Source of the DNA: Corynebacterium atypicum
GTDB lineage: Bacteria > Actinomycetota > Actinomycetes > Mycobacteriales > Mycobacteriaceae
DNA length: 64,000 nucleotides
Direction: 5' to 3'
Assembly: GCF_000732945.1 (NCBI RefSeq)
Contig: NZ_CP008944.1
Location: forward strand, 1,603,784 to 1,667,783
Under the pieces are notes generated by a model. It was given only the letters and a program-made list of their open reading frames with translations. It was not told where the DNA came from and searched no databases. Of this stretch, positions 55,411 to 61,070 are shown piece after piece. Both the position numbers and the translations under genes were made by a program. Each line of letters opens with the position of its first letter. The stretch's first letter is position 1.

Positions 55411-55710
55411 GGGTTCCAGGCTAATACGAGCCGGGTTCCGCTGGGGCCTGGGCCTTACTCGACCGGCGCCCGAGCTAGCTACCCGGCGAGGCGGCGTTCG
55501 CTGCGGTTACTAGAATCTCTCCCGGCGTGCGGGTTACGGGGGATCCACCGCAGCCGGGGTTAAGCGACAGGTTTCGGGGCGTGGTTCTAGAATCGTGAGT
55601 GAGGTGGGCGCCGAATTTTTAGTGGCCGATAGGTATTGTTTAAACTGACCGGCGTACGCAGGTGCACCGCCGCCTAGAACTCGCCGCAAGCGTTGCCACA
55701 AGGAGAGATC
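55411..55710 (+). promoter_or_regulatory. Region upstream of glnA
   Basis: 300 bp between the RDD start and glnA with no gene. TAAACT at about 55631-55636 with TTAGTG about 16 bp upstream is a plausible promoter, giving a leader near 70 nt. AGGAG precedes the GTG by 5 nt. I could not identify a clear AmtR box, although glnA is AmtR-controlled in C. glutamicum. Confidence 0.4.
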
Positions 55711-57147
55711 GTGGACATTCACTCGACCGAAGACGTTCTGAAATTTATTAAAGACGAGGAGGTTGAGTTCGTCGACGTCCGCTTTACCGACGTACCCGGC
55801 ACCGAACAGCACTTCACCATCCCCGCCGAGCTTTTCGACGAAGACGCGATCGATGAGGGCCTTGCCTTCGATGGCTCCTCGGTGCGCGGATTCACCACCA
55901 TCGATGAGTCCGACATGAACCTGCTGCCGGATCTCACGACCGCCCAGCTGGACCCCTTCCGCGAGTCCAAGACGCTCAACGTGCGGTTCTTCGTCCACGA
56001 TCCGTTCACCCGCGAGCCATTCAGCCGCGATCCCCGCAACGTGGCCCGCAAGGCCGAAGAGTACCTGGCGGCCACGGGAATTGCCGATACCTGCAGCTTC
56101 GGCCTCGAGGCGGAATTCTACCTCTTTGACAAGGTCCGCTACGCCACCGACATCAACCAGTCCTTCTTCGAAGTCGACTCCGAGGAAGGCTGGTGGAACC
56201 GCGGCAACGATACCAACCTCGATGGCACCCCAAACCTTGGCGGGCAGACCCCGGTGAAGGGCGGCTATTTCCCGGTCCCCCCGTTCGATCGCACCGAGCA
56301 TGTGCGCGACGAGATGGTGCGCACCCTCAAGGCCTGCGGCTTTGAGATCGAGCGCTTCCACCACGAGGTAGGCACCGGCGGGCAGCAGGAGATCAACTAC
56401 CGCTTCAACACGCTATTGCACGCGGCAGATGACCTGCAGAACTTCAAGTACATCGTGAAAAACACCGCCCGCCGGATGGGACGTACGGCCACCTTCATGC
56501 CGAAGCCGCTGGCCGGGGACAACGGCTCGGGCATGCACGCTCACCAGTCCTTGTGGAAGGACGGCAAGCCGCTCTTCCATGACGAGTCCGGCTACGCGGG
56601 GCTTTCCGACGTCGCGCGCTACTACATCGGCGGCATTCTCGCCCACGCCGGTGCGGTGCTGGCGTTTACGAACCCGACGCTGAACTCCTACCACCGGCTG
56701 GTGCCGGGCTTTGAGGCGCCAATCAACCTGGTATATTCGCAGCGCAACCGCTCGGCCGCGGTGCGGATTCCGATCACCGGCTCTAACCCGAAGGCGAAGC
56801 GCATCGAGTTCCGGGCCCCGGACCCCTCGGGCAACCCCTACCTCGGGCTGGCGGCCATGATGTTGGCCGGCCTCGACGGCATCAAGAACCGCATTGAGCC
56901 GCACGCGCCGGTGGACAAGGATCTCTACGAGCTTCCGCCCGAGGAGGCACGCTCGATCCCCCAAGCGCCGACGTCGCTGGAGGCCTCGCTGGCCGAGTTG
57001 GAGAAAGACAACGAGTTCTTGACCGAGGGCGACGTGTTCACCGAGGACCTCATCGACACCTACCTGCAGTACAAGTACGACAACGAGATCGCCCCCGTGC
57101 GGCTGCGGCCTACCCCGCAGGAGTTCGAAATGTACTTCGACTGCTAG
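55711..57147 (+). CDS. glnA: Glutamine synthetase type I (GlnA)
   Basis: ATP-dependent synthesis of glutamine from glutamate and ammonia, the main ammonium-assimilating enzyme. The protein (478 aa) starts at GTG 55711 ([12 protein letters not shown]) with AGGAG 5 nt upstream and has [10 protein letters not shown] near residue 53, the ATP region [20 protein letters not shown] near residue 265, and the adenylylation site Tyr406 in [11 protein letters not shown], so activity is probably controlled by the GlnE adenylyltransferase. The TTG 18 bp upstream is less likely. Confidence 0.96.
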
Positions 57148-57228: not shown

Positions 57229-58299
57229 ATGCAGCCACTTCCCTTCCCCGTCGCAGTCCTCGACGTCGAGACCACCGGTTTTTCTGGATGTGATCGCATC
57301 CTGGAGATCGGGATTTTGACCTTTGACGAGTCTCGGACCGAAACCGATACCCTGCACACGCTCATCCAGCCTGATCGGGATATTCCAAACACGGACATCC
57401 ACGGGCTGACTGCGAGCACGTTGCGCGACGCTCCCCTATTCAGCGAGGTCGCCGGCCAAATCGCGGCGCTTATCGACGGGCGCGTGGTGGTCGCGCACAA
57501 TTGTTCGTTTGACACTCGGATGCTGCGCCAGGAGTTTGACAGACTCGATTTTCCCTTCCCCGTGGGGCCATCAAACACCGTGGACACCATGCGTCTTTCT
57601 CACCAGCTGCTTCCGGGCGCCCCGAAAAAATTGAGCGCGGCGCTGGCTGCGGCGCAGTTGAGCAACAAGGCAGCGCACACCGCGTTTGGTGACGCCGCGG
57701 CGACGGCCCAGCTCTTTTTCTACCTGGCAGATCACGGGGCCCGGCTCACGAAGACCCCGGTGACGTTGCCCGCCGGGCTGTTGCGGTTGAACTCGGGTGA
57801 GCTGCTGCCCCGTCCGGTGCGCACGGGCCAGCCGGAGACCGACACGTACCAGCAGATGCTGGTGGCCGCTTTGGACGACGGCGTGGTCACCGAAGCCGAG
57901 CGGGAATTCTTGGTGCGCAAGGCTGGCGAGCTGGGGCTCGAGCCCGACGAGGCGCAGGAGATTCATCGGGACATGCTCGCGCGCATGGCGATGATGGCCT
58001 GGGCCGACGGCGTGCTGACTGACACCGAGCGTGAGCTGATTAAATCCGCTGCCCAGAACCTGAAGGTCAGCGACCGCGACGTCGAACAGCTACTGATCAA
58101 ACCGGACAAGGTGGTGGTGGACATCGCAGCGGGAGCCCGGGTGAGCTTTACCGGGGAGCTGACCTTGCCGCGCGACGAGTGGGAGTCCCGGGTGCGCGCG
58201 GGGGCTTACCGTGGGCGGGGTAACGAAGCGCACAGCTGTTCTTGTGGCCGCCGATCCGGAGACGAGGAGCGGGAAGGCCAAGAAGGCGCGCAGCTATAA
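57229..58299 (+). CDS. DEDDh exonuclease-TerB-BRCT protein, N-terminal part (frameshifted)
   Basis: The 356-residue frame has a DnaQ-like 3'-5' exonuclease with catalytic residues D12 and E14 (LDVETTG), D95 (AHNCSFD), H150 and D155 (AHTAFGDAA), then a TerB-like helical domain at about 205-290 with two acidic helix-capping motifs (DDGVVTEAE and ADGVLTDTE), and the first half of a BRCT domain from residue 301 (GARVSFTGELTLPRDEWES). After A324 the frame leaves the BRCT consensus (GAYRGRGNEAH). Removing one G from the G5 run at 58200-58204 continues the BRCT in the next frame. The ATG at 57229 was chosen; TAAAAT at 57210-57215 would make a nearly leaderless mRNA. Function unknown, possibly nucleic-acid processing. 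Confidence 0.8.
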   Translation: MQPLPFPVAVLDVETTGFSGCDRILEIGILTFDESRTETDTLHTLIQPDRDIPNTDIHGLTASTLRDAPLFSEVAGQIAALIDGRVVVAHNCSFDTRMLRQEFDRLDFPFPVGPSNTVDTMRLSHQLLPGAPKKLSAALAAAQLSNKAAHTAFGDAAATAQLFFYLADHGARLTKTPVTLPAGLLRLNSGELLPRPVRTGQPETDTYQQMLVAALDDGVVTEAEREFLVRKAGELGLEPDEAQEIHRDMLARMAMMAWADGVLTDTERELIKSAAQNLKVSDRDVEQLLIKPDKVVVDIAAGARVSFTGELTLPRDEWESRVRAGAYRGRGNEAHSCSCGRRSGDEEREGQEGAQL

Positions 58300-60502
58300 C
58301 GTGCCCATTATCTCCGAGGCGGAGTTGGGCTGGCTGCTAAACAATATGCCCGGAGAGCTCGAAGACGCGGCCGGCGAGGCCGCGCCGGCGGCCGCCACGG
58401 CCACCCCAGTGGACGCAACCGATGACGAGGGATTCGGTTCCGCCCCCGGGGACCTCGCGGCGCTCTTCCCGTGGGCCCAGGATGCGACAAGCGTGGGCGA
58501 GTTGACCCAGCAATGGATTACCCTCTACCAGTCAGAGCCCCTAGCGAGCATCTCCCCGCACTTGAGCATGCAGCTTTTTGCCGACTCCGTTGGCCGCTTT
58601 CCGATGCGCACCAGGCGCTGGCTCAATCGCTTCCCAAATCCGCTGCAGGCCTCCGTCGCCGAGCTTTACGATCTCCCCGGATTTGGGCCGAAGACCGTCG
58701 CGAGCGCCGTCGAGGCGGTGGTTCTCCTGGCGCTGGATGGATCGGAGGCCACCGAGGACGATGTCAACGCCGCGCACCCGCAGGCAGCGGGAGGCGAGGC
58801 TGCCGATCGCTCGGCCCTGCCGGGCGACGCCCCGGCGCGCGAGGAGCACCAGGCGGCCCCGGCAGCACCGACAGAGCTGGCAGGCCTCGAGCACGAGTTC
58901 GCCCCCGGCGCGGTCGACACTGAGCCGACGCCTCCCCAGGCGGGCGGGGACGCCGCGCGCGTGGTCGACTGGTGGGCGCTGACCAAGCAGTCAGTGGAGG
59001 AAAAGGTCGCGGGCGCTCCCGCGGCAGTTCAGCTGGCCGCCCGGCGCCTGGACGCCGGAGCCGAGGCCATCCGCCTGGGCTGCGCGCAGAAGGCCTGCGC
59101 CGAACTGAATAGGTTCTTCGGCGAAGACGAGCGCTACTTGCCGATCTTTACTGATCGAATCATCGCTTCGCATCCATTGCGGCTCGAGGATCTTGGCGCC
59201 CGTTTCGGGGTGAGCCGGCAGCGCGTGCGTCAGCTGCAGAGCAAAGTGAATTCGTTTGCCACCGAGATGCTCGCCGCGTCGGTCGCCGCCCTGGCACACC
59301 GCGTGCGTGCTCCACAGCTGCGCTCTGACTTCTTGGCGGCCAACCCCGACTTTGCCATCGAAATCGCGCCGTCGATTACTTTGCTGAAGGTGGCCGTCGC
59401 GTTGAGCGACGCGGTGCGGCTGCGCGAGGGCTTTGTTGAACCGGAAGCGGCGGCGGACGCGCTGTCCGACACCGCGGGCAAGGTGGCCGACGAGTACGGC
59501 GTCGTCTCGGCTGCCCAGCTTGCCGCCGACTGCGGCCTGGGCGAAGAGATGGACCAGGACACCTGGCGCAGTTGGGTGGAATCGGTGATGCCCGACTGGA
59601 CCTGGTACGGCGAGCACTTACTCACCCAGACCCGCTCGCAGCCGGATCGCGGGGTAGCGGTGCTCGCACTCGAGGGGCACCCGATGACCACAGAGGAGCT
59701 GAGTTTGGCGATTGCCACCGGAACCGTAACTGCGCTGGACAACGGCCTCGCCCTGGATCCGCGCGTGCACCGGGTGGCCAAGGGAACCTGGGCGCTCAAG
59801 GCCTGGGGCGGGGAGGAATTCACCACAGTCGCCCGGTGGATCGCTAATCGCGTGGATCCCACCGGCTCCGTGGCGCTGACCGAGCTTATCGCCCAAGCCC
59901 CCGAGGTGGGCATAGCGGAATCCACCGTGCGTACTTACTGCGCCAGCGGCGAGTTCACAACGGTCGACGGTATGGTGATGCGCAACACCGAGGAAGTGGT
60001 GGTTGATAGCAACCCCCAGGACTCCGCGGGCATGTACTACCGCGACGGGAGCTGGCAGCTGCTCGTCACGATCAACCACGATCACCTGCGCGGTTCCGGG
60101 TTCGCCGTACCGCGCTGCCTGGTCGGAATGCACCAGGTTTCATTCCTCGGCAAAAAGGAGTTCACCTCCGAGTTGGGCCCGCAGGAGTTACGCTTCGGCC
60201 GCACCAACGCCAGCTGCGGCACGATCCGCAGGTTCTTGCAGGCTCTAGGAGCCGGCGAAGGCGATCGGGTGTGGGTGGAATTTAGCCCCGCGGGAACGTT
60301 CGCCGTCACCCCGGCGCTGCCGCGGGTTCCCGGGCAGGCTATGGCGGAGCTCGCCAACCGCTGCGGGCTACCGGCGGACGCCACCTTGGCCGATGTGAAC
60401 CAAGCGCTCGGCCTGGCCCCCGACGCCCCGCGCCGACGCACCGTAGCCGTGCTCTACCACCGCAGGGAGGAGGACCTGGCGGACATCGTGCGCGCTCTTT
60501 AG
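58211..60502 (+). CDS. BRCT-HhH-sigma-region-4-like protein, C-terminal part (frameshifted)
   Basis: The frame begins mid-BRCT (GGVTKRTAVLVAADPETRSG, completing the domain with VPIISEAELGWLL near residue 31), so its GTG is probably not a true start and the gene likely continues from 57229, giving about 1090 residues in all. Next come a helix-hairpin-helix (LYDLPGFGPKTVASAV near residue 153), an acidic linker to about 250, a sigma-region-4-like helix-turn-helix (LRLEDLGARFGVSRQRVRQL near 323-342), two more winged-helix-like stretches (about 475-595), and a C-terminal domain with no recognised family. The combination suggests a large DNA- or RNA-binding nuclease. Nothing in the housekeeping neighbours explains it. 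Confidence 0.75.
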   Translation: MGGVTKRTAVLVAADPETRSGKAKKARSYNVPIISEAELGWLLNNMPGELEDAAGEAAPAAATATPVDATDDEGFGSAPGDLAALFPWAQDATSVGELTQQWITLYQSEPLASISPHLSMQLFADSVGRFPMRTRRWLNRFPNPLQASVAELYDLPGFGPKTVASAVEAVVLLALDGSEATEDDVNAAHPQAAGGEAADRSALPGDAPAREEHQAAPAAPTELAGLEHEFAPGAVDTEPTPPQAGGDAARVVDWWALTKQSVEEKVAGAPAAVQLAARRLDAGAEAIRLGCAQKACAELNRFFGEDERYLPIFTDRIIASHPLRLEDLGARFGVSRQRVRQLQSKVNSFATEMLAASVAALAHRVRAPQLRSDFLAANPDFAIEIAPSITLLKVAVALSDAVRLREGFVEPEAAADALSDTAGKVADEYGVVSAAQLAADCGLGEEMDQDTWRSWVESVMPDWTWYGEHLLTQTRSQPDRGVAVLALEGHPMTTEELSLAIATGTVTALDNGLALDPRVHRVAKGTWALKAWGGEEFTTVARWIANRVDPTGSVALTELIAQAPEVGIAESTVRTYCASGEFTTVDGMVMRNTEEVVVDSNPQDSAGMYYRDGSWQLLVTINHDHLRGSGFAVPRCLVGMHQVSFLGKKEFTSELGPQELRFGRTNASCGTIRRFLQALGAGEGDRVWVEFSPAGTFAVTPALPRVPGQAMAELANRCGLPADATLADVNQALGLAPDAPRRRTVAVLYHRREEDLADIVRAL

Positions 60503-60521: not shown

Positions 60522-61070
60522 CTAGTAAGCCTGTCGGCCCGGTTGGCCGTGCTTGTGCCACCCGATGCGGGGGACGAAGCGCTGCGGGTGGCGCAGCTGG
60601 GCCACCGCATCGGCGCACGCCAACCGGAACCGAGGATTGGTCACCGGCAGGTGCATAGCCTCGAACCAGCCGACCTCAGTCGATTCCTCGTCGCCCACGA
60701 CGGGCTCGGCATCGGCGGGCACCGACAGCCGCAGCGCGACGTCGAGGTAGCTGGCTTTGTCCCCGTTCGGGTACTCCACCGGCCCCACGGCACCAGTGCC
60801 TAAGAACGCCTCGACCTGTGCGTCGAGCCCGGTTTCTTCCGCGACCTCGCGCACGGCGGCGACGTCCGGATCTTCACCCGGATCGATGATCCCGGTCACC
60901 GGTGTCCACTCGCTGTTATCGGCCCGCTTGACCAGGAGAATTTTCGGCGTCTCCCACGCCGGAGCGCCGTCCGGCACCGGGCGCACCACAATCGCGGTGA
61001 CGCCGGGCAACCAGAGGTGCTCGTGACCCACGTGGCTGCGCAGCTTAGTGATGAATTCTGGGGTGGCCAT
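60522..61070 (-). CDS. Nudix hydrolase
   Basis: Predicted nucleoside-diphosphate-linked hydrolase of unknown substrate. The 182-residue protein has a full Nudix box, GIIDPGEDPDVAAVREVAEETGLDA around residues 60-84 (shown here by its ends), matching GX5EX7REUXEEXGU. N-terminal residues HLWLPGVTAIVVRP form the usual first strand. It converges with the frameshifted nuclease gene and follows the hypothetical gene at 61139 with a 68-bp gap. Confidence 0.88.
   Translation of the reverse strand: MATPEFITKLRSHVGHEHLWLPGVTAIVVRPVPDGAPAWETPKILLVKRADNSEWTPVTGIIDPGEDPDVAAVREVAEETGLDAQVEAFLGTGAVGPVEYPNGDKASYLDVALRLSVPADAEPVVGDEESTEVGWFEAMHLPVTNPRFRLACADAVAQLRHPQRFVPRIGWHKHGQPGRQAY

Follow-up and report, generated by a model that had tools for sequence, protein, structure and literature searches.

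A predicted exonuclease joined to a C-terminal DNA-reading module in Corynebacterium: a candidate nuclease against foreign or wrongly marked DNA

The 64,000-nucleotide stretch of Corynebacterium atypicum DNA analyzed here (the window; contig NZ_CP008944.1, positions 1,603,784 to 1,667,783; genome of 2.36 Mb in two contigs) features, between glnA and a Nudix gene, the information for a large protein combining a predicted DEDDh exonuclease, TerB-like and BRCT domains and a long C-terminal DNA-reading module. Judged by comparison with its relatives, this multidomain architecture is real and beyond chance. It is frequent in the genus and lacks a description in the literature searched, as far as titles and abstract openings reveal. 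With a probability of about 0.5, an intact copy encodes a single-protein DNA-targeting nuclease directed against foreign or wrongly marked DNA. The architecture, its conservation, the intact catalytic residues of the window copy, the defence genes next to the module at some loci and the grouping of fused forms in one clade form the basis from which we infer that DNA is the target, that docking precedes degradation and that the role is a defensive one.

The initial annotation had described a single gene here, and its coordinates, strand and domain order are borne out by the open reading frame list, Pfam and profiles built from relatives (kin profiles); in this assembly, however, two overlapping frames are present (Table 1). 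P0001, a database protein of 1002 residues with 11 members, is 100% identical to the first frame over 324 residues and 99.9% identical to the second over 674 residues. As P0001 spans both in one open frame, the gene does occur in undamaged form, and the version in the window is either impaired or wrongly sequenced. Either a sequencing error or a mutation caused its break, and the window copy as assembled is unable to encode the whole protein. The kin profiles were used to place all nine parts over both frames: exonuclease, TerB and part of BRCT reside in the first, the rest of BRCT, helix-hairpin-helix (HhH), sigma region 4, winged helices 1/2, winged helices 3/4, B3 and tail in the second, and the break thus falls inside BRCT. 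A programmed frameshift is rejected because the frame is continuous in the relatives and the break does not coincide with a domain border. Neither are these two genes designed to be separate at this point, since natural splits (L051, L052, L117 and L118) lie at or beyond the HhH-sigma4 border according to the kin profiles. An independent second half had been named as a sign against the annotation; the C-terminal half does occur alone, but these natural divisions are not inside BRCT.

Table 1. Features of the glnA-Nudix region (window coordinates)
Feature	Coordinates	Strand	Details and basis
glnA, left border of variable interval	55693..57147	+	orthologues 76-85% identical in 15/15 same-genus relatives (one draw)
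First frame	57229..58299	+	356 residues, ATG start; exonuclease, TerB-like, start of BRCT; open reading frame list, Pfam, kin profiles, identity to P0001
DEDDh 3'-5' exonuclease domain	57244..57735	+	predicted
TerB-like helical domain	57835..58110	+	Pfam TerB 1.4e-6; kin profile
BRCT, split over two frames	58126..58339	+	kin profile in both frames
Second frame, overlapping first	58211..60502	+	763 residues; remaining BRCT and C-terminal module; open reading frame list, identity to P0001
Helix-hairpin-helix, RNA polymerase alpha-CTD-like	58457..58741	+	
Sigma-70 region 4-like helix-turn-helix	59015..59266	+	
Winged helices 1 and 2	59291..59629	+	predicted structures; kin profile
Winged helix 3 (HARE-HTH-like) and winged helix 4	59630..59986	+	PF05066 in kin alignment; predicted structures
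Probable B3-like DNA-binding barrel, conserved DHLRGSG motif	60011..60322	+	Foldseek of P0101, alignment
Conserved basic helical tail	60341..60493	+	kin profile; helices in predicted model
Nudix gene, right border of variable interval	60522..61070	-	orthologue E<=1e-40 in 15/15 same-genus relatives (one draw)

RNase_T is recognized in the first frame (Pfam 1.3e-25) and the DEDDh domain shows the RNase H-like exonuclease fold, for which 3'-5' exonuclease activity is predicted. All five catalytic residues of the window copy, read via P0001, which is identical over the first 324 residues, are intact (DEDHD). BRCT is weak in the second frame (Pfam 0.019) and clearer in the intact homologue P0002 (1.3e-5). 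Among the 65 homologues that hold the exonuclease start in an alignment of 92 rows, 32 carry DEDHD, 30 carry DEEHD and three are broken; the corresponding numbers in a 23-row alignment of loci are ten, nine and four (L034, L035, L052 and L060). The catalytic acids put forward by the initial annotation are thus kept in most homologues and lost in 3/65 and 4/23. Both the glutamate at the third position and the broken sites could reflect relaxed selection on a protein that mainly binds DNA and whose exonuclease is decaying, and forms consisting of the C-terminal part only do persist in the genus (L053-L059). We consider this improbable, as the other four residues are kept in 62/65 homologues and N-terminal forms devoid of the reading module persist as well (L061-L063, L065 and L066, all by kin profiles). 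L034 (6713-10498, DKKHV) and L035 (6435-10070, DKKHD) are fused forms in which the exonuclease acids have decayed but the reading module is complete; their linker is long.

In the second frame, Pfam matches are weak (Sigma70_r4 2.7e-4, HHH_5 0.14), while the HhH part of the family aligns with the RNA polymerase alpha subunit C-terminal domain (alpha-CTD)-like HhH of P0101, a stand-alone relative. Where two further winged-helix-like regions had been noted initially, predicted structures contain four winged helices. PF05066 (HARE-HTH) is found in 13 of 19 members of the kin alignment (best 4.9e-6; the score shown is 22.3 bits against a cut-off of 25.9). The part that otherwise remains without a label is probably a B3-like barrel: in Foldseek the whole P0101 model matches the plant B3 domains of TEM1, LEC2, VRN1, VAL1 and ARF2 with probabilities of 0.87-1.00, weak E-values of 0.010-0.031 and, for four of the five, TM-scores by target of 0.48-0.53. 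Pfam B3 appears in 1/22 members (weak E of 0.072), no B3 protein is among the sequence-profile matches in the Protein Data Bank, and hhalign of the family's B3 part against R.CglI-type B3 gave no match (probability under 1%). A viral structure library yielded no match at E<=0.001, and Pfam scans of the window frames, P0002 and P0101 revealed no helicase domain. The alpha-CTD-like and sigma4-like parts could alternatively bind promoters or RNA polymerase, with the nuclease acting on transcribed or displaced DNA or on RNA. Such a transcription-linked role appears remote, because P0002 and P0101 contain sigma region 4 and no other sigma factor region, region 2 included (Pfam, E<=0.1), and sigma-like helix-turn-helix domains are regarded as DNA-binding in BrxL and reported from a DndH variant (PMC12839542, PMC10853773).

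Under the favoured reading as a nuclease against foreign or wrongly marked DNA, the C-terminal module, composed of the alpha-CTD-like HhH, the sigma4 part, the four winged helices (one of them HARE-HTH-like) and the B3-like barrel, would dock on duplex DNA. The cue could be a DNA sequence or a base or backbone modification. BRCT may grip a nick or a 5'-phosphate end and the DEDDh domain would then degrade the 3' end, with helical TerB conceivably adapting or regulating. At other loci, this reading module would form a subunit of its own, in some operons together with helicase-nucleases such as PbeA/PbeC. The earlier suggestion that damaged or foreign DNA is processed is supported as a possibility, with nuclease residues intact and many predicted DNA-binding parts.

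Among 201 Corynebacterium genomes, 92 contain a match (E<=1e-3) to the second frame. At E<=1e-28 the C-terminal half is found in 62 (hand count), about a third: 50 have a single frame of 917-1296 residues, five have shorter frames (the window's own, G114, G062, G067 and G024) and seven are C-only. All nine parts are present in 63 of 124 database proteins and 22 of 55 loci (kin profiles). Members are named 'exonuclease domain-containing protein' or 'sigma factor-like helix-turn-helix DNA-binding protein' in their sources, and the module of P0004 from Corynebacterium doosanense is identical to the one in L031 of the same-genus genome G098. In a C-module tree (built by a quick method from 88 of the 180 rows available, midpoint root, support by the Shimodaira-Hasegawa-like approximate likelihood ratio test, SH-aLRT, only), all 37 exonuclease-bearing rows fall into one clade of 51 rows with a support of 99, and eight label changes are required. 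This single clade is most simply explained by one fusion with subsequent losses and splits, and the module was probably fused to the exonuclease once in Corynebacterium. A single-protein scan of genome contigs retrieved no Corynebacterium locus and an alignment search one (L101) among ten. In a phylum draw with the whole stand-alone alignment, 296/296 genomes match, swamped by ordinary sigma factors; six, the window's included, do so at E<1e-24.

Outside the genus, defence genes adjoin the C-terminal half in 10 of 25 loci, which are the best-scoring and not a random selection. Stand-alone relatives immediately precede PbeA at five loci, and a sixth locus has one adjoining PbeA/PbeC. PADLOC models did not match the stand-alone module proteins of L186 and L187 (1e-10) or L114 and L113 (0.001). 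A role as DNA-repair exonuclease, with BRCT and HhH locating nicked or branched DNA, the exonuclease trimming 3' ends and the winged helices adding grip without any part in immunity, is possible but rather doubtful. In its favour, the N-terminal half matches PRK06063-type DEDDh-BRCT proteins, though below the cutoff, the window neighbours are housekeeping genes, and the C-module shares an operon with UvrD/RecB-like helicase and PD-(D/E)XK genes (L059) or is next to a UvrD helicase (L156, L157 and L175). Its patchy presence in the genus, the retention of the reading module in L034 and L035 despite the lost exonuclease site and the coupling of the module to PbeA/PbeC speak against repair. In L059 (6030-13964), the Corynebacterium C-only gene directly follows the helicase and nuclease genes on the same strand. 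L156 (4624-10301), L157 (5231-10866) and L175 (3953-9832), family f86, share a three-gene row in which the UvrD-like helicase gene lies between those for a B3-part-only protein and a C-module protein. In L173 (484-6544) and L174 (2233-9567), genes for HATPase, an Mrr-ResIII protein, a small gene, a short C-module gene and a C5 cytosine methylase gene follow each other, possibly constituting an undescribed restriction system.

Upon comparison of the window's interval between glnA and Nudix with those of the 15 same-genus relatives, a fused copy was located at another genomic site in three of the latter (G001, G006 and G010), while one had a match to the N-terminal part only and another a match to the C-terminal part only; the gene position varies within the genus. 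Six relatives were chosen for a glnA-Nudix spacing of 2-10 kb, a small selected sample without statistic. L180 contains AbiD (Pfam Abi_2 6.7e-35, PADLOC 8.2e-51), L184 a type III methylase (3.1e-208) and a ResIII protein (5.4e-11; no PADLOC match at 1e-10), L185 PIN and DUF559/MTES_1575-type proteins and L183 apparent haem-uptake genes (by eye), while L181 and L182 have none of these gene types. The statement that the gene is not in a defence island is true for its immediate neighbours and incomplete otherwise, given AbiD or type III restriction genes in 2/6 of these intervals and the defence genes beside the C-terminal half outside the genus. Differing interval contents, together with copies on the other side of Nudix, indicate a variable neighbourhood with the gene placed at more than one spot.

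Several observations weigh against a defence nuclease. Ordinary genes surround most Corynebacterium copies; a GmrSD homologue lies near two fused ones (L044 and L101). L036, L039, L040 and L043 carry the fused gene adjacent to Nudix but on its other side, towards thrC and outside the glnA-Nudix interval. No defence gene was seen beside the remaining 15/25 C-module loci outside the genus, mostly judged by eye, with L073 (a 3.6 kb contig) and L168 hardly inspected; L156, L157 and L175 belong to a single lineage. Of the six modules linked to Pbe, two are incomplete or distant by kin profiles (L172 with the winged-helix part only, L114 with winged helices 3/4 only), and the fourth PbeC genome (L193) has no adjoining C-module. 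The B3 assignment stems from predicted structure with weak E-values, nuclease activity across the family is a prediction, and the D-to-E exchange at the third catalytic position (30/65) is accompanied by a few homologues without the site.

Among known systems, PADLOC candidate PDC-S48 (model PDLC05027, 411 residues) resembles the N-terminal half by model match alone, at 7.5e-84 for the first frame and 2e-12 for the start of the second, and stand-alone exonuclease-TerB-BRCT proteins of 411, 433 (Blastococcus) and 502 residues exist; however, the model ends at the BRCT part and the family's C-terminal module lies beyond it. In the literature searched, no paper names PDC-S48 or combines TerB, BRCT and exonuclease as whole words, and none was recognized by title and abstract opening as describing a protein of the window family. 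PbeABCD (CxC ABC-ATPase-DndE) resembles our case in the stand-alone C-half relatives adjoining PbeA (six loci), but the window gene is flanked by glnA and Nudix and its genome lacks a PbeC match at 1e-60. PbeB is a small protein of 66 residues in the literature (PMC6459918, PMC10853773), whereas the PbeA-linked module proteins comprise 418-1297 residues. CglI/NgoAVII differs as well: the fused protein has a DEDDh exonuclease, and PF20731 (NgoFVII-type B3) occurs in 3/201 genus genomes and not in the window genome. Tandem (triple) winged helices are described for DndG, SspB and FokI of restriction/modification systems, DNA-binding in FokI (PMC10853773); by description only, the window family is similar and deviates by four winged helices plus sigma4, alpha-CTD-like and B3-like parts. 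From PRK06063-type DEDDh exonucleases it is set apart by 115 bits for the N-terminal half against a cutoff of 389, and from the DinG type by the lack of a helicase domain in Pfam.

If our reading is correct, roughly one in three Corynebacterium genomes sampled (62/201) encodes a defence nuclease of this family, the reading module would be a recognition subunit hitherto missing from Pbe-, MZA- and GmrSD-type systems, and the glnA-Nudix neighbourhood would be a place to seek Corynebacterium defence genes. The defence links of the second half add to the interest of the architecture. In several Corynebacterium genomes, oligopeptide ABC transporter genes adjoin small frames of ~164-319 residues that contain winged helix 3/4, the B3-like part or both, and nothing else of the family (L068, 6214-6708; L121-L125, e.g. 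L122, 7024-7983); some such matches in the genus draw cross a stop.
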